A DNA stretch of 20,210 nucleotides from a virus: the IMG/VR virus record IMGVR_UViG_3300032236_001209, positions 1 to 20,210 of that record; one strand, written 5' to 3'. The notes below the pieces were generated by a model. The model was not told where the DNA came from, searched no databases, and saw only the letters and a program-made list of their open reading frames with translations. Of the stretch, positions 1 to 17,455 are shown piece by piece. Both the position numbers and the translations under genes were made by a program. The first letter of the stretch is position 1; each line of letters opens with the position of its first letter.

Positions 1-709
1 CTGCGGCTTGGAATCGACTTCCAGCTCCAGCCATTGGGATAAGAACATTCATCTTACCACCTTGCCATTTTGGAATACTCATAACTTTATTTTTGTTTAA
101 TTTGTTTTCTATTTTTTCTAATGTCAAATCATGTGGATTGTCCACTCTTAACACATTTGCTCTACTTCTACTTGCTGCCAATAACCCATGTGGAGAGTCT
201 TCTACAATTAGAGTTTCTTCTGGTAAACATCCCATCATACTCATTGTTTTCCAATACATCTCAGGATGCGGTTTAGAGTTCTTTACATCCTCATTAGAGA
301 TAATTAAATCCATATATTCAATTATACCTATCTTTGCTAACATAACCAATACAGACCTTCTAATTGAGTTTGAAGCACATGCCAACTTATATCCTCTATC
401 TCTCAATTCCTTAAATACCTCAATCAATCTTAAATCAGGTTGTAATTGTGATATTGCTTCGATTGTTAAATGTTGTTTTCTATTCCAAACGGTTTCGTAA
501 GTATCTCTATGCAATCCTTTATTTTGTGTAAGTAATTCCAATTTCTGATTAGTTTTTAATCCATCATAAATTGATAAATGTTCTGCTTCTGAAATTACAT
601 ACTTATCGCTCTTTGCAATTTCCCATAAAGCTTTATTTAAGGTATCAAAGTGTATTTGTTTAGCTTCTACCAATACACCATCCAAATCAAATATTATTAA
701 TTTTGTCAT
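1..709 (-). CDS. HAD phosphatase fused to sugar nucleotidyltransferase (3' end outside window)
   Basis: I translated this frame directly from the ATG at 709. It stays open for 236 codons and leaves the window without a stop. Residues 1-215 form a complete HAD hydrolase: DLDGV at 8-12 (nucleophile D8, acid D10), S113 (motif II), K146 in NSKPHP (motif III) and EDS at 170-172 (motif IV). This resembles the beta-phosphoglucomutase/phosphatase branch. At about residue 220 a second domain begins with MNVLIPMAGAGSRF, the glycine-rich nucleotide-binding start of sugar-1-phosphate nucleotidyltransferases. The fusion suggests removal of one phosphate and nucleotide activation of a sugar by one protein (inference). 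Its start overlaps the stop of the kinase-aldolase gene by 4 nt (ATGA), so the two are probably translated together. The sugar and nucleotide are unknown, and most of the second domain is not visible. Confidence 0.85.
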   Translation of the reverse strand, partial: MTKLIIFDLDGVLVEAKQIHFDTLNKALWEIAKSDKYVISEAEHLSIYDGLKTNQKLELLTQNKGLHRDTYETVWNRKQHLTIEAISQLQPDLRLIEVFKELRDRGYKLACASNSIRRSVLVMLAKIGIIEYMDLIISNEDVKNSKPHPEMYWKTMSMMGCLPEETLIVEDSPHGLLAASRSRANVLRVDNPHDLTLEKIENKLNKNKVMSIPKWQGGKMNVLIPMAGAGSRFQAA

Positions 710-2136
710 TTTCTATATTTTTCAGATTGTAAATTTAATAAATAATCAACATCATCTTTCGATATCGGTTTAATCTTACCCAATTTATTTGCGTACCATA
801 AAATATAATTATGAGCTGCCAATGTTTCTTCATCATCAATTACAACTGCATCTGGAAAAGTAAAAGTTTCAATTGGTTTATATTGTGGCCAACTAAAATC
901 AAATTCTTTGAAATTTGGAACTGCTTTTTGAATATATTCTTTTGTAAATGTATTGATACGAGAAATTAAATGAATACATCTCAAATATCTATCCGATGTA
1001 ACTATTAATCCATGGTTTTGTAAAAATATTACTTCTTTTAAATCTGGAGTATTTAAAATTTTACTACTCAATTCAAATCCAGGATTATAATAATCTAAAT
1101 ATGAATATTCAAAATCATCATCTAAAAATATTGAATCTATTATATCTTTGCCATTTTCTAAAGATAATATACAATTTAAATAAATAGGATGTATGTGGAA
1201 AACATATTTTTTAAATCCGGTATGAAATGCCGTTTCCATTGATGGTTTCTTATATGGTGTATTTTTTACCAATCCTAATAATTTAGAATCCAAGTCCGTA
1301 TCAGAAACTATATCATCAAAATTTATATTATAATCAATAACAGAATATCCTTTATTGTACTTTATATCTTTTATTTTCCCCCCTGATTCTTTTATTATCA
1401 TCAATTTTTCATTTATTTTTGATGATATGTTTCCACCTTTGGATTGAACAATACTAATTCTATGACCTAAACTACTATTCATCCATTCAAATTCCTGCAG
1501 CTCCTTATGCATTGTTTCTATGAATTCAAATAATTTATAATCATATCCTTTTTTATTTAAAGTTATTTCAAATCCATGCAAATATTTCATAGTAATAATA
1601 ACATCTGCTTTTTTAATTTGAATATCTCTTATATGATTTGCATCAGTTTCTCTTTGTTCTATTTGCTGATATACCATTTCTTCGGTATATCCTCTTTCAT
1701 TTATATCTCTATTTAATTTAAATTTTATTCTATTTGATTCATCGGTATCTATCCATATATTTAAATCCGAAATATTAGAAGAATAATCAGTATAGAATGA
1801 ATGTAAACCTTCATTTATTATGTATTTGTTTGGTTTTATTTCAATTGTGTTATCAAACATACCGGTAGTATGATTGTAAGGATTTCTATAAATACTTTCA
1901 CAATTTTTTAATTTTTTTAAATCATCATCACCTTTTTGCAAATCATTTGTAAGAGGATTTAAATGTGTATATTTTTCCCAAATTGAATTTTTTCTATCAT
2001 ATTTATGCAAATCATCTCCTGATATTATGGTTGTATTTTCATATCCATAATATAATCTGATGAAATTTGCAATTGTAGATTTTCCACTACCAGAATCACC
2101 TGCTATGTTTATTATTTGTGGTTTAATTTCTACCAT
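706..2136 (-). CDS. Phosphoribulokinase-like kinase fused to class II aldolase
   Basis: This is a 476-aa two-domain enzyme. Residues 1-205 are a P-loop kinase of the phosphoribulokinase/uridine kinase family: Walker A GDSGSGKS at 13-20, DDLHKYDR at 41-48 and the PRK-like EGLH at 109-112. Residues 218-476 are a class II (zinc) aldolase/epimerase domain: KGGNIS phosphate-binding loop at 233-238, PSMExxxH with probable catalytic E301, zinc ligands H314 and H316 in HIHP, and H375 in QNHG. The Glu/His-His/His spacing is close to that of fuculose-phosphate aldolase. Both active sites look intact. A likely role is forming and phosphorylating a sugar phosphate for a glycan donor (inference). The start overlaps the upstream glycosyltransferase by 14 nt, and the stop overlaps the HAD-nucleotidyltransferase start. 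The exact substrate cannot be read from sequence. Confidence 0.88.
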   Translation of the reverse strand: MVEIKPQIINIAGDSGSGKSTIANFIRLYYGYENTTIISGDDLHKYDRKNSIWEKYTHLNPLTNDLQKGDDDLKKLKNCESIYRNPYNHTTGMFDNTIEIKPNKYIINEGLHSFYTDYSSNISDLNIWIDTDESNRIKFKLNRDINERGYTEEMVYQQIEQRETDANHIRDIQIKKADVIITMKYLHGFEITLNKKGYDYKLFEFIETMHKELQEFEWMNSSLGHRISIVQSKGGNISSKINEKLMIIKESGGKIKDIKYNKGYSVIDYNINFDDIVSDTDLDSKLLGLVKNTPYKKPSMETAFHTGFKKYVFHIHPIYLNCILSLENGKDIIDSIFLDDDFEYSYLDYYNPGFELSSKILNTPDLKEVIFLQNHGLIVTSDRYLRCIHLISRINTFTKEYIQKAVPNFKEFDFSWPQYKPIETFTFPDAVVIDDEETLAAHNYILWYANKLGKIKPISKDDVDYLLNLQSEKYRK

Positions 2137-2866
2137 ATTTTTGCCAATCGTTGTGCATGAATAATCCTTCGTTATGTCCTACTTTATATTCTTGTTGCGC
2201 CCACCATTTACTAATATTTCCTTCCAATGCAATTCCTTCACCTGCAAATGGTTTGACAGTATTTAAATAAAATTGTTTTTTATAAAGACATGGGTTGTTT
2301 GTCCAATTACCATAACGAGATGTAGTCCAAAACATATCTTCCGATTTATTTATTTTATCGGGAAATTCTATTGCAGGGTCTAACCAATGTAGTGAATCTA
2401 ATAAATGTGGTGATGTTACTCCAATTTCTTCATCATAATAAGTTAATTCATCTCCTCTCATTCTAAATGAAAAATGTGGGAAACCTGGATTCGTTCTATG
2501 TCTTAATCTAACTACATCCAATCCCATTTCGATTGCCTGATAACTTCTTTTTAATGTATTGTATGTAGTTTCTTTATCTTCAATTAAATTCCAATCATGT
2601 TCTAATACCAAAACATAATCCGATTGTGCATTTTCTGTCAATCTAATGAATGCTTGTCCAATTCCGATGTTTTTTTGTAAACCTATGAAATCCAATTCAA
2701 AATGAGTTGCTATTTGAATATCTTGTGGTGTTACTTCTTGAAATAAAATAGTGACATCATTAACCATATCAAACAATCCATTATTGTGATATGTGGTCAA
2801 TGTATCTACTAATACTTGTCCACTATGCCAACTCAATATTCCTATACTAATTGGTAGTTTTTCCAT
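2123..2866 (-). CDS. GT-A fold glycosyltransferase (GT2-like)
   Basis: This 247-aa protein has the layout of a small family 2-type glycosyltransferase. It starts with a beta-strand and loop (SIGILSWHSG, 7-16), then NIGIGQAF at 66-73, and then a hydrophobic strand ending in LEHDW (88-92). LEHDW sits where GT-A enzymes carry the metal-binding DxD motif, with D91 the likely ligand. There is no signal peptide or membrane helix, so it should act in the cytoplasm on a nucleotide sugar. It overlaps the next upstream glycosyltransferase gene by 20 nt and the kinase-aldolase gene by 14 nt, so it belongs to the same translation-coupled block. Donor and acceptor are unknown. Confidence 0.75.
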   Translation of the reverse strand: MEKLPISIGILSWHSGQVLVDTLTTYHNNGLFDMVNDVTILFQEVTPQDIQIATHFELDFIGLQKNIGIGQAFIRLTENAQSDYVLVLEHDWNLIEDKETTYNTLKRSYQAIEMGLDVVRLRHRTNPGFPHFSFRMRGDELTYYDEEIGVTSPHLLDSLHWLDPAIEFPDKINKSEDMFWTTSRYGNWTNNPCLYKKQFYLNTVKPFAGEGIALEGNISKWWAQQEYKVGHNEGLFMHNDWQKYGRN

Positions 2867-3497
2867 TTCTTAAATAATTTATAAAATATTCATAATCTTT
2901 TTTCTTAATATCATCCCATTCTTTTTCATCTGATGTTGTACTCATTTCCGTTTCAACTCTAAAATTTCTCAAACATCCTTTTGCTACTGGATTTATATCT
3001 TTAATTATGTTATCTCCATACCAAATTTTAATATCATTTGGAATCGGTTGCCAATGTGATTTTTTAAGTAATATCAAACAACCCCATCCCCAATCGTTTA
3101 CACCGGGTTTCCACATATCAATATAAGGTCCTCTTTCTTCATCAATTGTGTCTTTATAATTTCCTTCACCCATACCAATAATACCACTATACATTAAAGT
3201 ATTTTCAGTAATTACTCCAAAGATATTTGGGTCAAAATTTATATCATCATTACATAATGCAATACATTCATTCTTTGCTATTTCAATACCCAAATTCCAA
3301 GCTGGGTTTACATAAATGTTTTCACCTTCCGAAATCAATCTCATCTTTGGTTCAACAAATAAATTCATTCCAGTTGGTGCTGCATTGTCTATAACAATTA
3401 TTTCATCAACATACTCACATTCTCTTAAATCTTCAAGTAACTTTTTAGTTCTATCAGATTTCCAAAGTGTAGGAATTACGACTGTGTATTTATCCAT
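2847..3497 (-). CDS. Glycosyltransferase family 2-like protein
   Basis: This 216-aa protein begins with the GT-A pattern YTVVIPTLWKSDRTKKLL, followed by DEIIVIDNA at 31-39. NPAWNLGI lies at 64-71, and LCNDDINFD at 81-89 supplies the DxD-like metal-binding acids. This order (VVIPT, IIVIDN, a WNxG-type loop, NDD) is typical of GT2-type sugar transferases. It is short for the family, with only a brief C-terminal region after the catalytic core. It overlaps its neighbours by 20 and 22 nt. It is probably a cytoplasmic sugar transferase of the cluster, with substrate unknown. Confidence 0.8.
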   Translation of the reverse strand: MDKYTVVIPTLWKSDRTKKLLEDLRECEYVDEIIVIDNAAPTGMNLFVEPKMRLISEGENIYVNPAWNLGIEIAKNECIALCNDDINFDPNIFGVITENTLMYSGIIGMGEGNYKDTIDEERGPYIDMWKPGVNDWGWGCLILLKKSHWQPIPNDIKIWYGDNIIKDINPVAKGCLRNFRVETEMSTTSDEKEWDDIKKKDYEYFINYLRNGKTTN

Positions 3498-4075
3498 TGT
3501 ATAAATTGTTCAGGTGAAATAACATTTAACATTCTATATTTGTGAACATTATAATACGCATAAGTTTTATAATTTTCAATATTTGGTTGGAATGGTACAT
3601 TTGTACCTCTACGAATAATACCACATCCATAATCGGTATCAACAACTCTAATATCTAAATCAATTGTTTCAACTCTTAATTCTGCAATTGCTTTCCAAAC
3701 ATCACCGGTCCATTCACCACCATTGTCATCTCTTGATTGCATTAATTCGGTCGATGGTAAACAATCGTGGCAAATAATAGTACCATTATCAGATAGATGA
3801 TTTAAAGAATTTTCAATATCTTTTAAAACTTGGTCATCATGATGCAATCCATCTACAAAAATAATATCATATTTTACATCTTCAGAAATACTTTCAAAAT
3901 ATTCATCCGATGTTCCAATAAATGTAACCTCACCTCTCGGAAATGGGTCAATTGAAACTTTGTGTTCTACTTTGATTAAATCAAAATTTGATGTTGGGTC
4001 TTGTGTTCCAACTTCTAAGTAACTTTTATATCCGTATTTTTCAATAAAAGCGTTAATAATGTCTGTTCTTTTCAT
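3476..4075 (-). CDS. Class I SAM-dependent methyltransferase
   Basis: This 199-aa protein matches the Methyltransf_24-type class I fold. A SAM-binding strand YLEVGTQDPTSNF starts at residue 19, an acidic strand end SIDP lies at 41-44, and the family-typical FVDGLHH is at 73-79. DNGTIICHDCLPS (96-108) follows as the strand-4/5 region. Related proteins sit in many polysaccharide clusters and are thought to methylate sugars or amino-sugar groups. That role fits the flanking glycosyltransferase and epimerase, but it is inference. The start lies 3 nt after the epimerase stop, and its stop overlaps the next glycosyltransferase by 22 nt. A role on DNA is less likely, because I see no DPPY/NPPY motif. 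Confidence 0.82.
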   Translation of the reverse strand: MKRTDIINAFIEKYGYKSYLEVGTQDPTSNFDLIKVEHKVSIDPFPRGEVTFIGTSDEYFESISEDVKYDIIFVDGLHHDDQVLKDIENSLNHLSDNGTIICHDCLPSTELMQSRDDNGGEWTGDVWKAIAELRVETIDLDIRVVDTDYGCGIIRRGTNVPFQPNIENYKTYAYYNVHKYRMLNVISPEQFIQWINTQS

Positions 4076-4078
4076 ATT

Positions 4079-5071
4079 TTATTTTTTCCAAAATGAGTAA
4101 ATACCCTTATCTAATTCATATTCGTTCCAATGAAATCTTTCTCTATTAGGTTGTTTTTGAGCCCATTCCCACATTCTTGTCAAACCATCTTTTAATGTAG
4201 TTTTATGTTCAAATCCTAATATGTCTACCGATTTTTGATGTGTTGGTATTGAATATTTAACTTCGTGTCTACCTTCCTTATAAACAACTTCACTACCACC
4301 AATTACTTCTATCAAAACATTGTTTGCTGCATTTATTGACCATTCTTCTATTCCACCTAAGTTTATTATTTCTTTAGATGCTTCTGGTCTTATTGCTGCG
4401 TTCCAAAGTGGTTCTAATATATCATCAATATAACTAAATGCTCTTTTTTGTTCACCATCACCAAATATACTCATAGGTTCTCCGTTCATATGTTGATACA
4501 TCCAAATACCCAATACGTTACGATATTTGTCCCATATGTTTTGTTTGATTCCATAAACATTGTGTGGTCTAATAATACACCAATCCAATCCATGTTGTTC
4601 ACCTGCGATTTGAATATCCATTTCACAACCATATTTTGCAACACCATAAGGGTCAATTGGTGCAGGAATTTGTGATTCATCAAATACTCCATAATTACCA
4701 TGTCCATATACTGCAAGTGTAGATGTAAATACCAATCGTTTAACATTATGTTTAATACATTGATTAACTATTCTTGCTGTTGCAACTAAATTATTTTCAT
4801 AATTAAACTGTCTAATAAATGGTGATAATCCTTCTGCCGCATATGCTGCAAAATGGAATACATAATCAAATTTATATGTTTCGAATACAAAATCTAATTC
4901 ATTTTTTACTAAATTTCTTTGTAAAAAAGTTATATTTTTATTTACATTTTCTTCATATCCACCACTCAAATCATCTATACCAACTACTTCAATTTCAGGA
5001 TGATTTTCAACTAACCAATCTGCAAGCCTACTTCCCAGTAATCCTGCTACGCCCGTTATTAAAACTTTCAT
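4079..5071 (-). CDS. NAD-dependent nucleotide-sugar epimerase/dehydratase (extended SDR)
   Basis: This 330-aa protein is an extended short-chain dehydrogenase of the UDP-glucose 4-epimerase type. The NAD-binding loop TGVAGLLG is at 6-13 and the adenine-ribose acid is in GIDD (31-34). HFAAYAAE lies at 73-80. The catalytic set is S117/T118 with Y142 and K146 in PYGVAKYG. The C-terminal half has the RAFSYIDD substrate-domain pattern. It would interconvert nucleotide sugars in the cytoplasm, supplying the neighbouring glycosyltransferases. Whether it is a GalE, a dehydratase or another epimerase is not settled. The start is fixed by the canonical MKVLITG. This places its first 44 nt inside the upstream glycosyltransferase gene, an unusually long overlap. 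Confidence 0.88.
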   Translation of the reverse strand: MKVLITGVAGLLGSRLADWLVENHPEIEVVGIDDLSGGYEENVNKNITFLQRNLVKNELDFVFETYKFDYVFHFAAYAAEGLSPFIRQFNYENNLVATARIVNQCIKHNVKRLVFTSTLAVYGHGNYGVFDESQIPAPIDPYGVAKYGCEMDIQIAGEQHGLDWCIIRPHNVYGIKQNIWDKYRNVLGIWMYQHMNGEPMSIFGDGEQKRAFSYIDDILEPLWNAAIRPEASKEIINLGGIEEWSINAANNVLIEVIGGSEVVYKEGRHEVKYSIPTHQKSVDILGFEHKTTLKDGLTRMWEWAQKQPNRERFHWNEYELDKGIYSFWKK

Positions 5072-5924
5072 ATTTTTCTATTAATTTATCTACTACTTGT
5101 ATTTGTGTATAATTTGCTATTACTTTTGCCATACCATTGTATGCAATTCTTTCTCTTTCTTCTTCGTTATCGGCATAGTAGTTTATCTTTTCAATACAAT
5201 CGAACATATCGTTGTATAAAATGATTTCTTCACCTTCAACAAATATCTCATCTAATCCTCTACTTTCAGGTAATCTATCTGTAATAACTAATTTACCACA
5301 AGCCATTCCTTCAAATATTCTACGAGTTATTTCTTGCCATCTACTATTTTGAATAACTATTAAACCACTATTTAAAAATTTAGTATGTTCTTCTGCATCC
5401 ATATTATTTCTATTTCCAATAGCACCTTCTGCCCATCTCGTAAGATAATCTAAAAACTCAGAACCACCTGGTCCTCTACTTGTAACTGCGGTGTATTGTG
5501 GTTCGGTATTTAATGGAAACTGAACTGCTGTATCTGCCCAATGTGTTACCCAATCGGAATCAATTCCATTATTTCTATAATGTCTAGCAGATTCTTTATC
5601 AGGAGTTATTGTATAATGGAATCTATGTGATTTAGGATAATTTCTAACCCAGTTTTGAGGGTCATCACCACTTTCTTGTATCCAAAATGCTTCTGGTTTT
5701 AAATTCTTATCTAACCATTTAGAATCAAATCTACCCCAATCCATAAACATTACAATATCCGTTGGTGTATCTTGTTGAATCCACAATTGTAATTGCGAAT
5801 CATCACCATTTGGAATTGGAACTATTTCAGTTTCCCATCCTCTTTCTTTAAATTCATTCAATAAAGATAAAGGTGTTGACCATTTTTCATTTGGTTTATG
5901 GTCGTAAATAAATGTTATCTTCAT
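5028..5924 (-). CDS. CgeB-like GT-B glycosyltransferase
   Basis: This 298-aa protein starts MKITFIYDHKPNEKWS and ends in a GT-B nucleotide-binding region. NSRWQEITRRIFEGMACGKL runs from 193 to 211, followed by VITDRLPESRGLDEIFVEGEEI. E205 in FEGMACG lies where GT-B enzymes bind the donor sugar. The layout resembles CgeB/Glyco_trans_1_2 proteins, which carry a short degenerate N-terminal domain. At under 300 aa it is small for a two-domain GT-B enzyme. Its tail, about 14 residues, is encoded in the same DNA as the NAD-binding loop of the downstream epimerase but in another frame. The upstream gene ends 4 nt into it (ATGA). Substrates are unknown. Confidence 0.8.
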   Translation of the reverse strand: MKITFIYDHKPNEKWSTPLSLLNEFKERGWETEIVPIPNGDDSQLQLWIQQDTPTDIVMFMDWGRFDSKWLDKNLKPEAFWIQESGDDPQNWVRNYPKSHRFHYTITPDKESARHYRNNGIDSDWVTHWADTAVQFPLNTEPQYTAVTSRGPGGSEFLDYLTRWAEGAIGNRNNMDAEEHTKFLNSGLIVIQNSRWQEITRRIFEGMACGKLVITDRLPESRGLDEIFVEGEEIILYNDMFDCIEKINYYADNEEERERIAYNGMAKVIANYTQIQVVDKLIEKYESFNNGRSRITGK

Positions 5925-6580
5925 ATATTATATTCTTCTCTTTTAAAATTTATTCTATAATGGTTTTCACCTTGTTTATTATATGGTGAATATGGGTTCC
6001 AATCATTACCACATTGAATATAATTTAGTTCCGCATTAAATCTATCTCTATAAACTGAATCTAAATTTATTGTTTTTATGTAATTTGATTTTGCCCACCA
6101 AAAATTACCTGAATAGAATTTACAATTTGGTAGGTGTGATAATAATACACCATAGCTATTAAAATTCGTATTTTCAAATAATTTAAAAACATCTTTACAT
6201 TTTTCAATATTATAATAATTCATAAGATGTCTCCAACTTATAATATTATCATAACTTATATCATTTTGTTTAGATGCTCCCTTTGTATGAATATACAAAA
6301 TATAATCGGATTCACCAAATGTTTCTTTATCTTTTTCTATTAATTCAATCGTTGTAAACTCATTACCACCAGCTCTTACTTCTCTAATTTTATAATTTGG
6401 TTTATTAAACTTATAAAATTTTTCTATAATATTATAAGTTGATTGGTTTTCATTAGCAATAGAAATCCCCACATTTAGTATGTAGGGAAAATCAAAATAT
6501 TTTTCTATTAAAGAAATTTGTTCATTAATTATGGATTCAACACCATCAATTGCATATATGTGATAATATATTCTTACCAT
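5921..6580 (-). CDS. Putative glycosyltransferase with YIHTKG motif (rhamnan synthesis F-like)
   Basis: This 219-aa protein does not look like GT2 or GT4. It has the pattern LYIHTKGAS at 95-103, SWRHLMNYY at 115-123 and SGNFWWAKSNYI at 157-168. I associate this pattern with RgpF/rhamnan synthesis F-type glycosyltransferase-like proteins. No classical DxD motif is obvious, and the HTKG and NFWWA blocks are probably the conserved core. It sits between two clear glycosyltransferases, sharing a TAATG junction (1 nt) with the upstream GT2 gene and a 4-nt ATGA overlap with the downstream one. The family call is recognition by motif only. Glycosyltransferase activity is inferred from context. Confidence 0.62.
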   Translation of the reverse strand: MVRIYYHIYAIDGVESIINEQISLIEKYFDFPYILNVGISIANENQSTYNIIEKFYKFNKPNYKIREVRAGGNEFTTIELIEKDKETFGESDYILYIHTKGASKQNDISYDNIISWRHLMNYYNIEKCKDVFKLFENTNFNSYGVLLSHLPNCKFYSGNFWWAKSNYIKTINLDSVYRDRFNAELNYIQCGNDWNPYSPYNKQGENHYRINFKREEYNI

Positions 6581-7203
6581 TATAAAGTATCATAATAATT
6601 GTTTTGTCTTTCTTGTCTTTCTATTGTTTTTGGATGCTTTATACAATATACTTCTTCTGCTGGGAATGCTGTATAATTTTCGTATCCACCAATTCTTTCG
6701 TGTACTTTACCTGCCCACCCAATTGTTTCTTTATTTTTGTAAATACGAGTTTGAACATCTGGAAAGTTTACCCAACCTTTTTCGTTTACATTCCATCTCC
6801 ATTTTTGAATATGTGCATCCGTTAATCCTTCGACAGTATTAATTCTAGGAACTACAATTAAATCTTTATCTGAATTTGTATCTAATATATCTTCCAAATT
6901 AACAATTAAATCTGGTTCCAAATATTCATCCGCATCCAATTGAAATATCCATTCACCTTTACAATTTGAATTTAAAAAATTCTTCCATTGTGCAAAATCA
7001 TTATCAAATTCGGATTCAATTAATGTAATATAATTTGCTTCACCTTGTAATTCCAAATATTCAACCAACTCAGCAGGTGCTTTTGGTGTATCTAATAAAA
7101 CTACTATTTCTGAATTTTCTCCTTTATAGTTTAATAATTGTGTAACTAACCTAATAGTTTCTTGTACCTCATTACAAGCAGTAATTGCGTAACTTATTTT
7201 CAT
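6580..7203 (-). CDS. Family 2 glycosyltransferase (WaaE-like)
   Basis: This 207-aa protein is a compact GT2 enzyme. It opens with ISYAITACNEVQETI at 3-17, and IVVLLDTP at 33-40 forms the second strand. FQLDADEYLEPDL at 87-99 carries the DxD-type metal site (D90, D92). A late VHER at 167-170 is a pattern common in WaaE/KdtX-type and other lipooligosaccharide GT2 proteins. It probably adds one sugar in the cytoplasm. Only a single base separates its start from the stop of the Ser/Thr-rich protein gene, and its own stop overlaps the next start (TAATG). Sugar and acceptor are unknown. Confidence 0.83.
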   Translation of the reverse strand: MKISYAITACNEVQETIRLVTQLLNYKGENSEIVVLLDTPKAPAELVEYLELQGEANYITLIESEFDNDFAQWKNFLNSNCKGEWIFQLDADEYLEPDLIVNLEDILDTNSDKDLIVVPRINTVEGLTDAHIQKWRWNVNEKGWVNFPDVQTRIYKNKETIGWAGKVHERIGGYENYTAFPAEEVYCIKHPKTIERQERQNNYYDTL

Positions 7204-7634: not shown

Positions 7635-8309
7635 TTATATTATTTTTGGTTTTGAACTTTCTAAATATTCTATAATTTGTTGTGCTAATTCATAATATCC
7701 TTGCTGCCCATAATGTCCATCTTGTACCGCATCATTTGTTTCTTGTGACATATTTGTATGATTTACAACAGGTATACTTAAATTTAGATTTTGTTTACCT
7801 CCAATTACTTCATTACACCAACTCCAATGGACAACAGTTACTCCTTTTAATTCCGCCCACTCATTTATAAAAGAAATCCATTCATTAACTTCATTTTCGT
7901 ACATGTCCTGAAATTCACTTCTATTTAAAAGTAATTGTTCAACAATTTCGTTTGTAACATGCACACCATCAACACAACCATATTCTGGTTCCGATGTTAA
8001 ACCCTTTGCCCATATTTGTCTCCAACTTCTATTACGATTTGCACCAGATGCTAATCTAAATCTTAAAATAACAGTCCATCCAAAAAGAACTATATCACCT
8101 TTTTTTATATTTTTAAAATTAGCCAAAAATCTATGAAACATTTGATGATTGGATGAACCACCCACTCCCAAATTATTAGATTCCATTTCATATTTTTCTG
8201 CAACAAAATCACATGTACTTTTGCCTTCATACCCCAACCATGCGGTATAAGGTCCTTCTTTTCCAAGTTTAGCGGTCATTGAATCACCGAATGCCCAAAC
8301 TGTATTCAT
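7635..8309 (-). CDS. SGNH/GDSL hydrolase (apparently intact)
   Basis: This 224-aa protein carries SGNH blocks in order. AFGDSMT at 6-12 has nucleophile S10. LGVGGSSNHQM at 47-57 supplies the oxyanion Gly and Asn54. LFGWT at 75-79 is at the block III position, and DGHYGQQGYYELA at 197-209 gives the Asp-x-His pair D197 and H199. Family members in glycan clusters usually remove or transfer acyl groups on sugars, so a glycan esterase or acetyltransferase role fits here (inference). There is no signal peptide, so it should be cytoplasmic or virion-carried. It differs from the second SGNH-like protein at 16706-17455, which has lost these residues. Confidence 0.8.
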   Translation of the reverse strand: MNTVWAFGDSMTAKLGKEGPYTAWLGYEGKSTCDFVAEKYEMESNNLGVGGSSNHQMFHRFLANFKNIKKGDIVLFGWTVILRFRLASGANRNRSWRQIWAKGLTSEPEYGCVDGVHVTNEIVEQLLLNRSEFQDMYENEVNEWISFINEWAELKGVTVVHWSWCNEVIGGKQNLNLSIPVVNHTNMSQETNDAVQDGHYGQQGYYELAQQIIEYLESSKPKII

Positions 8310-12351: not shown

Positions 12352-13563
12352 TTAAATTAATCTATTTGATGTATTTCTTAATTTATCTAATTTAGTATTA
12401 AATTCATTAACTTTATCCAATTCCATATCAGGATTAGTATCCATAAAAGTTAAAATAGCAAGTAATTCATTTTTAGTTTTTTCAGATTCTATTTTTTCAA
12501 TATTATCATTAAAAAATTGTCTAACTTGTTCTTTTGCCGCAGGTGCTAAATTATTAATAGAAGCATATCCAGGTTGCCATGCATAATAAAAATCTATATT
12601 ATCGGTAGTTTCTATTAATTCATTTTTTTGCATAAATTCTATAAAATCAAAAATATGGAATACATTATAAATTGTTGTTGTAAACTGAAAATTGTAATGT
12701 AATTCATTTTTATTTGTTCTATCTCCCAGTTTTGCACCATATGGAACAAAGTATTTCTTAACACTTGCCATATTTTCCATAAATGTATCGTGCAAAAATC
12801 CAGTTCTTTGATATTCGCCCACTTCACCAATACCATCACATGATATTGATAAGAATACTTTTTTAAATCCTTTCCACATTTCAACTAAATCGGAATTTTC
12901 AAATCTAGTAATTGATAAATTGGTATTATAATGTATTCTTAAAGGTCTAACATCAAATTCATTTACAGGTAAATTATCATATAACCATCTTAAAATTTTA
13001 TAATGCCCTGGCATAATTAATGGTTCTCCTCCTGCAAAATAAATACTTTTAATTTCTTTTAAGTGTGGTATTAATTCATCAACAATATTTTCTCTAATTT
13101 GTACCAACTTTGGTAAGTTTGCAACTGAATCAGGATTTAATATTTTTGCATCTTCATACCAATTTGATGATGAATCGTGTCCACACATTCTACATTTAAA
13201 ATTACATAAATTAGAAAAACGAACGTCTATATGTTGAAATTGAACTTCAACACTAAAATCTTCGTTTACTTCTGGATGATGCCATAATGTATTTGAATTA
13301 TAAAATTGTCTAACACTACTTTCACCCAAATCTTCTTTTTTATAACAAACTTCGCAAGATTTATTTCTCTTGCCTTCCATCATATCTTTTCTTAATTGTT
13401 TGAATTGAGGAGAATTAAATATATCCTCAACCGACATTTCATTTATGTTTAAAACGGGTTCAAATGGGTCTGCTATCCCACATGGTTTTACCTCACCATT
13501 TGCCAATGAACACAAATGCATGAAAGGAAATCTACAATAAGTTTCTGATGGTAGTTGTTCCAT
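12352..13563 (-). CDS. Twitch-domain radical SAM protein
   Basis: This 403-aa protein has the radical SAM cluster motif CNFKCRMC (C120, C124, C127), preceded by the strand HIDVRFSNL and followed by FAGGEP at 176-181. Before it lies a cysteine-rich twitch/SPASM-like segment: C10, C18 and C28 (VKPC), an IFNSPQFKQLRKDM helix, and CEVC (C70, C73). This segment could bind an auxiliary iron-sulfur cluster. Members of this family modify peptides or other substrates by radical chemistry; the substrate here is unknown. The gene sits between the gp62-like clamp-loader gene (1-nt TAATG junction) and the nuclease, at the border with the glycan block. It could act on a protein or sugar made by that block (inference). 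Confidence 0.87.
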   Translation of the reverse strand: MEQLPSETYCRFPFMHLCSLANGEVKPCGIADPFEPVLNINEMSVEDIFNSPQFKQLRKDMMEGKRNKSCEVCYKKEDLGESSVRQFYNSNTLWHHPEVNEDFSVEVQFQHIDVRFSNLCNFKCRMCGHDSSSNWYEDAKILNPDSVANLPKLVQIRENIVDELIPHLKEIKSIYFAGGEPLIMPGHYKILRWLYDNLPVNEFDVRPLRIHYNTNLSITRFENSDLVEMWKGFKKVFLSISCDGIGEVGEYQRTGFLHDTFMENMASVKKYFVPYGAKLGDRTNKNELHYNFQFTTTIYNVFHIFDFIEFMQKNELIETTDNIDFYYAWQPGYASINNLAPAAKEQVRQFFNDNIEKIESEKTKNELLAILTFMDTNPDMELDKVNEFNTKLDKLRNTSNRLI

Positions 13564-16686: not shown

Positions 16687-16717
16687 TAAATATACGAATA
16701 ATTTTTTAGATTTCAAA
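16687..16717 (-). promoter_or_regulatory. Possible Bacteroidota-type promoter for the sliding-clamp gene
   Basis: On the minus strand, TTTG (16714-16717) is followed after 19 nt by TATATTTA (16687-16694). The Bacteroidota consensus is TTTG, 19-21 nt, then TAnnTTTG, so spacing fits and the -7 box has one mismatch. A start site a few bases further on would give a short leader to the ATG at 16666. It lies in one of only three real gaps of the window, partly within the end of the upstream gene. The AT-rich background makes chance matches likely. Confidence 0.33.
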
Positions 16718-17455
16718 ATTTTGTTCAATATAATTGTATAAATTTTTTGCATATGCTTCATTTTGAATTGCAGATGCGTATGTAGAATTATTTTCAAAAT
16801 ATGGATAATTACCATCAAATCTATTGGAATCGGAATAATCTGTTTTTAAAAATGTTCCATTCCAAACAAAAGGAATTTGCTTATTATCTAAGTAATTTGT
16901 AATAAGCAGGTGGTTTTTGTACCAATTCATTAAATCTTCTTCCGTATTTGTTGAAGACATAATTCCAACCCACTCTTTTCTTCCATCCATTTCTTCATCA
17001 AAATAACCCCATGGTTTTTTACTATATGGTTCTATTGTACCATCTATTGTATAAAATTCTCTTTTATGAGGATATGTGTACATAATAAAAACAAAATCTG
17101 GATTTAATGTATCATTCCACGATAAAATAGTTCTAGCAATATAATCATTACTTCTACCATTAATACCACAATTTAAATCAACTCCATTTTTAAATTGTTT
17201 TGATAAATAGTGAGGCCATGTTTGATGATTATGTACCATAATACCTTCGGTATGCCCACATCCAACTGACATTAATCTCAATCCTTTTTTTCTCGGTGAA
17301 TCACCTCTAAATCCTAATTCATTAAATGTATAGTAACAATTTCCTGTGGAATCTGCTCCATTCCCCATTAATTCTTTATTTGCTCTTTCTGCAAATCTCC
17401 ATTTGTAACTAGCAATTTCAAATGTTTCTTTTTTCCAAAATTTTAAACTCTTCAT
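16706..17455 (-). CDS. SGNH-fold protein lacking catalytic residues
   Basis: This 249-aa protein has the frame of a phage SGNH hydrolase-like family: TFNELGFRGDSP at 43-54, then LMSVGCGHTEG at 61-71, WPHYLSKQF at 80-88 and NCGINGRSNDYI at 95-106. In related proteins the first block reads GCSxTxG with Ser as nucleophile; here that position is G67 (codon GGG in the DNA). The C-terminal Asp-x-x-His pair is also missing from the end (around NEAYAKNLYNYIEQ). It may be a binding or scaffold protein rather than a hydrolase. It lies between polymerase (2-nt gap) and clamp genes, away from the glycan block. It keeps an intact reading frame, so it is probably functional in some way. Confidence 0.7.
   Translation of the reverse strand: MKSLKFWKKETFEIASYKWRFAERANKELMGNGADSTGNCYYTFNELGFRGDSPRKKGLRLMSVGCGHTEGIMVHNHQTWPHYLSKQFKNGVDLNCGINGRSNDYIARTILSWNDTLNPDFVFIMYTYPHKREFYTIDGTIEPYSKKPWGYFDEEMDGRKEWVGIMSSTNTEEDLMNWYKNHLLITNYLDNKQIPFVWNGTFLKTDYSDSNRFDGNYPYFENNSTYASAIQNEAYAKNLYNYIEQNFEI

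Follow-up and report, generated by a model that had tools for sequence, protein, structure and literature searches.

Two overlapping enzyme fusions in a phage glycan cluster and their possible part in a route to a nucleotide-activated ketopentose-derived unit

The last two genes of a glycan cluster in an uncultured virus encode a fusion of a kinase with a class II aldolase (KIN-ALD) and a fusion of a HAD phosphatase with a nucleotidyltransferase (HAD-NTP), and judging from domain sequences and gene content we lean towards the view that they are part of a phage operon which would make a nucleotide-activated ketopentose-derived unit for the adjacent glycosyltransferases. The same functions, together with a GDPD-like protein, form a five-function set in diverse bacteria and many uncultured phages, through which an activated sugar is probably made by a new route. 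Confirmation of this route would assign a function to surface-polysaccharide genes whose annotation stops at uridine kinase, phosphoribulokinase, class II aldolase, HAD hydrolase or GDPD; it would mean that phages possess the complete set in condensed form, and it would connect glycan synthesis with PRK/RuBP-phosphatase chemistry as it is familiar from carbon metabolism.

Genomic setting

The stretch of DNA analysed, hereafter the window, is a complete IMG/VR record of 20,210 bases, so that the sequence has no continuation to the left and relatives are the source for what lies past that edge. Its DNA polymerase is T4-like, the closest isolate being Microcystis phage Mel-JY01 (48%), and a glycan cluster on the minus strand reaches its left edge with KIN-ALD and HAD-NTP as the final genes. 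The gene directly upstream of KIN-ALD (2123..2866, minus strand) overlaps it by 14 nt and is without a family match; a homologue of about 87% identity occupies the same place in the loci L010, L011 and L195, and from its context the gene is probably a glycosyltransferase. The remainder of the cluster (2847..7203, minus strand) consists, by Pfam, of a GT2 (2847-3497), a methyltransferase (3476-4075), an NAD-dependent epimerase (4079-5071), a GT1-like protein (5028-5924) and a second GT2 (6580-7203), with an unknown protein at 5921-6580. The cluster furthermore holds a GDSL/SGNH hydrolase-like protein (7635-8309, minus strand) with a weak Pfam match, a possible second one, seen by eye only, lies near the DNA polymerase (16706-17455, minus strand), and a radical SAM/SPASM protein is found between the glycan cluster and the replication genes (12352-13563, minus strand).

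KIN-ALD (706..2136, minus strand) is a protein of 476 aa with Pfam PRK/uridine kinase and class II aldolase domains. As a previous sequence-only reading had it, the two fusions overlap by 4 nt, the ATGA at 706..709 (minus strand) being shared by the open reading frames at 706-2136 and 2-709 as the stop of the former and the start of the latter. The AlphaFold model of KIN-ALD has a pLDDT of 92.5 and a pTM of 0.89, and its domains match PRK and fucose-type aldolases respectively; the best viral structural match is a giant-virus 'class II aldolase' of Bodo saltans virus (BFVD A0A2H4UUW4). The closest relatives of the window's KIN-ALD (L010/L191/L195, 65%) lie beside a different NTP gene, and the stretch from 2 to 2136 is mosaic in that HAD-NTP is 87% identical to its counterpart in L018 whereas KIN-ALD is closest (65%) to L010/L191.

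Kinase and aldolase domains

The PRK-like kinase domain comprises residues 8-182 (1591..2115, minus strand; Pfam PF00485, 7e-29) and is structurally matched by the M. hungatei PRK (5b3f) with a Z-score of 21.2 and an rmsd of 1.9 over 190 residues. It has the P-loop GDSGSGKST and an aspartate, D41, in the position of the catalytic Asp of PRK, and its residues H44, R48, Y87, H89, K140 and R143 correspond, with a constant offset of 11, to H55, R59, Y98, H100, K151 and R154 of the Ru5P/ATP site of M. hungatei PRK, of which R154 is an ATP-site residue (PMC5241800). Among 152 family members, the 49 fused and 22 separate viral kinases all have D41 and these site residues, and at each site the same residue is kept by all but one of 81 bacterial kinases. 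Since the PRK07429 score of 169 bits is below the curated PRK subfamily cut-off of 236, the kinase is not classed as a PRK, but it is predicted to work like one and would add a phosphate to C1 of a ketose 5-phosphate. With PRKs of PF00485, such as 5b3f and the cyanobacterial enzymes, it has in common the fold, the P-loop, the catalytic Asp and all residues published for the Ru5P/ATP site, whereas it differs from them in that it is about 200 aa long, lacks the PRK C-terminal part, is fused to an aldolase, has motifs of its own (KWER, which is KYDR in the window, and THLNPxAN) and is encoded in glycan loci without Rubisco.

Fusions of this kinase with other partners are also found. In bacteria the kinase makes up the C-terminal portion of a protein of about 700 aa, the N-terminal part of which resembles a membrane glycosyltransferase (weak ALG3 match), and in several large phages the kinase domain is joined to a different, soluble glycosyltransferase-like domain (DUF7796-like); examples of such kinase-transferase proteins are L087 7729-9804, L006 8906-10888 and L193 8254-9702, and the fusions with presumed transferases in bacteria and in large phages are independent.

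The aldolase domain comprises residues 207-404 (925..1518, minus strand; Pfam PF00596, 5e-10 at 228-395) and has its structural matches in 3m4r (Z 20.9) and the L-fuculose-1-phosphate aldolase 2opi (Z 19.3). The glutamate base E301 and the zinc ligands H314, H316 and H375 are invariant in phages and bacteria. Epimerase, dehydratase and decarboxylase members exist in the class II aldolase fold, and the catalytic residue is a Glu in FucA and an Asp in the AraD epimerase; an AraD-type epimerase was judged unlikely since the catalytic position is invariantly Glu. By its active-site residues the domain appears to be a class II zinc sugar-phosphate aldolase with predicted DHAP aldol activity. It shares fold and Glu/His active site with the L-fuculose, rhamnulose and 5-deoxyribulose 1-phosphate aldolases of PF00596, but differs from these in its biosynthetic neighbours and in a C-terminal tail (residues 405-476; 709..924, minus strand) with the motifs PDxV and LLNxxxEKYR, which are common to the bacterial aldolases of the gene set.

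The HAD-nucleotidyltransferase fusion

HAD-NTP (2..709, minus strand) is cut by the contig end, such that 236 of about 455 aa are visible and no stop is reached. Residues 1-205 (95..709, minus strand) form a HAD-IA phosphatase domain of the PGMB/YqaB subfamily (HAD_2 1e-30 at 5-188; TIGR02009 1e-25), and the active-site motif DLDGV as well as the positions S112, K145 and E169/D170 are present. The active sites had been proposed to be intact in this domain and in both domains of KIN-ALD, and the P-loop, PRK, aldolase and HAD residues are indeed all kept. The best model for the HAD domain is PGMB-YQAB-SF (91 bits), while the match to the RuBP-phosphatase model NF053830 is weak (36 bits).

Of the nucleotidyltransferase domain the window holds the first 18 residues (KMNVLIPMAGAGSRFQAA; 2..55, minus strand), a stretch too short for a Pfam match which was therefore read by alignment with relatives. 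The closest of these is a complete HAD+NTP protein of 455 aa (L018:9422-10789) with 87% identity over the visible 236 aa of the window, and homologues of about 50% identity in Kyanoviridae likewise have a complete PF00483 NTP_transferase domain after the same junction, so the window domain can be taken as a nucleotidyltransferase. The GxGxRF ... PKPL motif is found in the complete domains of L018 and the cyanophage homologues, the window with its 18 residues showing only their beginning. The earlier assignment of the second domain is thereby upheld through the relatives and not from the window itself, and its truncation here is due to the contig end only.

A conserved gene set in phages and bacteria

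When the entire fusion served as a single protein query, no viral contig matched, and domain profiles were needed. A kinase-core profile was built from plasmid loci matching the kinase and used to scan bacterial genomes and viral contigs; loci were picked by the kinase core alone, and the other functions were then scored by separate profiles, the E-values of which depend on the alignments built in this analysis. The viral loci are IMG/VR contigs, some of them of bacterial type (L144, L145).

Kinase, aldolase, NTP transferase, HAD phosphatase and GDPD-like protein occur together in 61 of the 66 bacterial loci with enough flank and in 59 of the 76 viral ones, where all numbers are counts of loci and not of independent events because many loci are near-duplicates. 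NTP transferase and GDPD-like protein are each found in 64 of the same 66 bacterial loci, and in 75 and 74, respectively, of the 76 viral ones. The four activities that had been suggested from the window alone do therefore form a conserved unit, in kinase-chosen loci with glycan contexts in phages as well as bacteria, although the order of steps in which the aldolase comes first is not supported (see below). The sequence-only reading had missed a fifth member, since a GDPD-like protein follows these genes in nearly every relative, and it had also missed that the set extends beyond phages: in bacteria its functions are encoded by separate genes, the carriers being Pseudomonas, Erwinia, Yersinia, Legionella, Lysobacter, Sphingomonas, Polynucleobacter, Nitrospira and Acidobacteria.

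Gene order is mostly fixed in bacterial and viral loci, the commonest bacterial order (43 loci) being NTP-NTP, GDPD, kinase, HAD, aldolase and the commonest viral order (24 loci) kinase+aldolase, NTP, mini-HAD, GDPD. In bacteria, as in the Yersinia proxima locus, GtrA and a GT2 separate the tandem NTP gene from that for GDPD. An NTP gene of whichever type nearly always follows KIN-ALD and usually overlaps it. Most phages have KIN-ALD, an NTP gene, a mini-HAD of about 100 aa with DIDET and WTARG motifs, and a GDPD-like gene; the mini-HAD between the NTP and GDPD genes, e.g. L172 11122-11436, is mostly left unannotated by family libraries, and the notion that most phage loci are without a phosphatase was rejected when it was seen to be encoded in the 290 nt that follow the NTP gene. 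About a dozen viral loci have no HAD.

The window belongs to an arrangement of KIN-ALD, HAD-NTP and GDPD that is seen in six viral loci. Since these six loci lack both the separate NTP gene and the mini-HAD, the HAD-NTP fusion takes the place of that pair, an interchange which speaks well for a route shared by the phosphatase, the nucleotidyltransferase and the kinase-aldolase. Domain identity, intact catalytic residues, co-occurrence and the interchange are read directly from sequence and gene content. The window itself is without a GDPD-like gene only because the contig ends there.

Two lineages can be told apart among the NTP domains. NTP-A comprises the first halves of tandem proteins together with the NTP that viruses encode as a single gene, and NTP-B the second halves together with an additional gene after GDPD in eight sequences, which is closest to these second halves (L159, L160, L161, L194, L211, L213, L217, L218). 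The lineage of the window's HAD-NTP is equally distant from both, and HAD-NTP is therefore a replacement rather than an orthologue of the NTP of the bacterial set.

All 27 bacterial HADs of the set match the RuBP 5-phosphatase model NF053830 (best E 8e-59), and this is the best model for the Yersinia proxima HAD as well, with 168 bits, which is below the curated cut-off of 330 bits. The GDPD-like proteins have no Pfam match, but H6, R7, E35, D37, H49, D50 and K71 are invariant among the relatives and correspond to the HR, ExD, HD and Lys catalytic positions; the model of this protein of 146 aa has a pLDDT of 93.7, and its structural match to GDPDs is partial (1vd6, E 9e-3).

The kinase-aldolase fusion itself looks phage-specific, bacteria having separate genes. 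It is absent from 80 bacterial loci and from 398 Pseudomonadota genomes, five of which have the kinase form of about 700 aa; three further kinase matches in these genomes are in frames of 324-355 aa, the ordinary PRK size, and no kinase match spans an aldolase. It is likewise absent from 50,697 phage records, where the kinase found no more than partial matches of about 30% identity, and no phage pathway with this pair was found in open-licence PMC papers, in agreement with what had been stated before. Searches of open-licence PMC papers for the gene set as such and for the genes of ketose-containing O-antigens yielded no description of the set, and a jumbo-phage survey which treats phage glycan clusters does not mention an aldolase (PMC7824862).

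Proposed pathway

From these observations we infer a pathway in terms of its substrate, order, aldolase direction, nucleotide, GDPD step and final glycan. The PRK-like kinase would phosphorylate a ketopentose 5-phosphate, most likely ribulose 5-phosphate, at C1, and the HAD phosphatase would then remove the 5-phosphate to leave a pentulose 1-phosphate. The zinc class II aldolase might interconvert this 1-phosphate with DHAP and glycolaldehyde, or exchange the aldehyde and thereby set the final sugar and its stereochemistry, and the nucleotidyltransferase would make an NDP derivative from the sugar phosphate. The GDPD-like protein, encoded just past the contig end, could act on a phosphodiester intermediate or product, and the glycosyltransferases would transfer the unit.

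Aldol formation followed by phosphorylation, as first suggested, fits poorly with a PRK-like kinase that keeps a ketose-5-phosphate site and with bacterial HADs that resemble RuBP 5-phosphatase, and on these sequence grounds it is more likely that the kinase is followed by the phosphatase and that the aldolase acts on the 1-phosphate. Several points nonetheless count against the proposal. Kinase and HAD would already provide the pentulose 1-phosphate, so a role for the aldolase is not evident, and as the phosphate of a ketose 1-phosphate is not the anomeric one, the NDP product would differ from the usual glycosyl donors. Furthermore, HAD-NTP occurs with a GDPD-like gene but without the kinase-aldolase in Kyanoviridae, the HAD of the window matches the RuBP-phosphatase model only weakly, its NTP lineage is equally distant from both types of the bacterial set, the GDPD match is partial, and about a dozen viral loci are without a HAD.

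A variant in which the module activates the ketose at its anomeric C2 would explain the two conserved NTP lineages as well as the GDPD. Kinase and HAD would here shift the phosphate from C5 to C1, NTP-A would form an NDP-1-ketose, the GDPD-like protein would cyclise this and open it to a 2-phosphate, and NTP-B would form an NDP-2-ketose, which, if the variant is true, donates the ketofuranose residues of surface glycans. The variant is however quite unlikely, and many phages, the close relatives of the window among them, have one NTP domain only.

Alternative explanations

The kinase, HAD and aldolase could also degrade a pentose phosphate (Ru5P to RuBP to Ru1P to DHAP and glycolaldehyde) for host metabolism during infection, with NTP transferase and GDPD-like protein serving elsewhere. 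The chemistry of the three enzymes fits the haloarchaeal non-carboxylating pentose bisphosphate pathway, and pentose-phosphate genes are known from cyanophages, S-8S55 having a transaldolase near HAD-NTP. Such a shunt is however unlikely, since the NTP transferase and the GDPD-like protein occur as regularly as the aldolase does, the loci are rich in glycosyltransferases and GtrA, and a glycolaldehyde reductase was not noticed in them. Homologues in unrelated catabolic settings had been named beforehand as something that would refute the original idea, and no such setting was seen for the fusion. That the two fusions serve separate pathways and have become neighbours through the shuffling of phage glycan cassettes is rather unlikely: the occurrence of HAD-NTP without kinase-aldolase in Kyanoviridae and the different closest relatives of the window's HAD-NTP (L018) and KIN-ALD (L010/L191/L195) agree with such mosaicism, but it accounts poorly for an NTP gene that nearly always follows KIN-ALD and usually overlaps it, for the replacement of NTP gene and mini-HAD by the fusion, and for the clustering of the same activities in bacteria.

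A function in nucleoside or nucleotide metabolism, with a uridine/cytidine kinase joined to an epimerase or dehydratase of nucleoside breakdown, is very improbable. The Pfam family is indeed shared with uridine kinases and human UCK2 is a close structural match (Z 21.6), but the NCBIfam scores are 169 bits for PRK07429 and 76 for uridine kinase, the PDB sequence matches are 1e-55 for PRK and 3e-21 for uridine kinase, and the Ru5P-site residues are invariant; a uridine kinase was rejected on these grounds.

Relation to known systems

The NDP-heptose pathways (HldE/GmhB and HddA/GmhB/HddC) use a kinase, a HAD phosphatase and a nucleotidyltransferase to proceed from a bisphosphate through a 1-phosphate to an NDP-sugar. 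The proposed kinase-HAD-NTP route would follow the same logic with other enzymes, and hits to the NTP domain include the 'putative 6-deoxy-D-mannoheptose pathway protein' (5xhw, 6jq8), but the kinase belongs to another superfamily, an aldolase and a GDPD-like protein are added, and there is no isomerase GmhA.

The pairing of a RuBP phosphatase of the HAD type with a FucA-type class II Ru1P aldolase has been shown experimentally in the haloarchaeal non-carboxylating pentose bisphosphate pathway, the phosphatase model of which is the best match of the bacterial HADs; in that pathway, however, an isomerase makes RuBP from ribose 1,5-bisphosphate and the end products are DHAP and ethylene glycol, whereas here the HAD and the aldolase are accompanied by a PRK-like kinase, an NTP transferase, a GDPD-like protein and glycosyltransferases (PMC9700705). 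The glycan cluster of the Kyanoviridae S-8S55, S-PRM1, B23 and DSL-LC03 shares with the window a HAD-NTP of about 50% identity and has a GDPD-like gene nearby, but these records are without the KIN-ALD that the window has.

Two further loci may be mentioned. A phage glycan cluster (L172 1407-2500) contains a split transketolase, the N and pyrimidine-binding halves of which are two genes, and a 33-kb E. coli IncR plasmid (L006, NZ_CP145712.1) carries the complete bacterial gene set with IS26 downstream.
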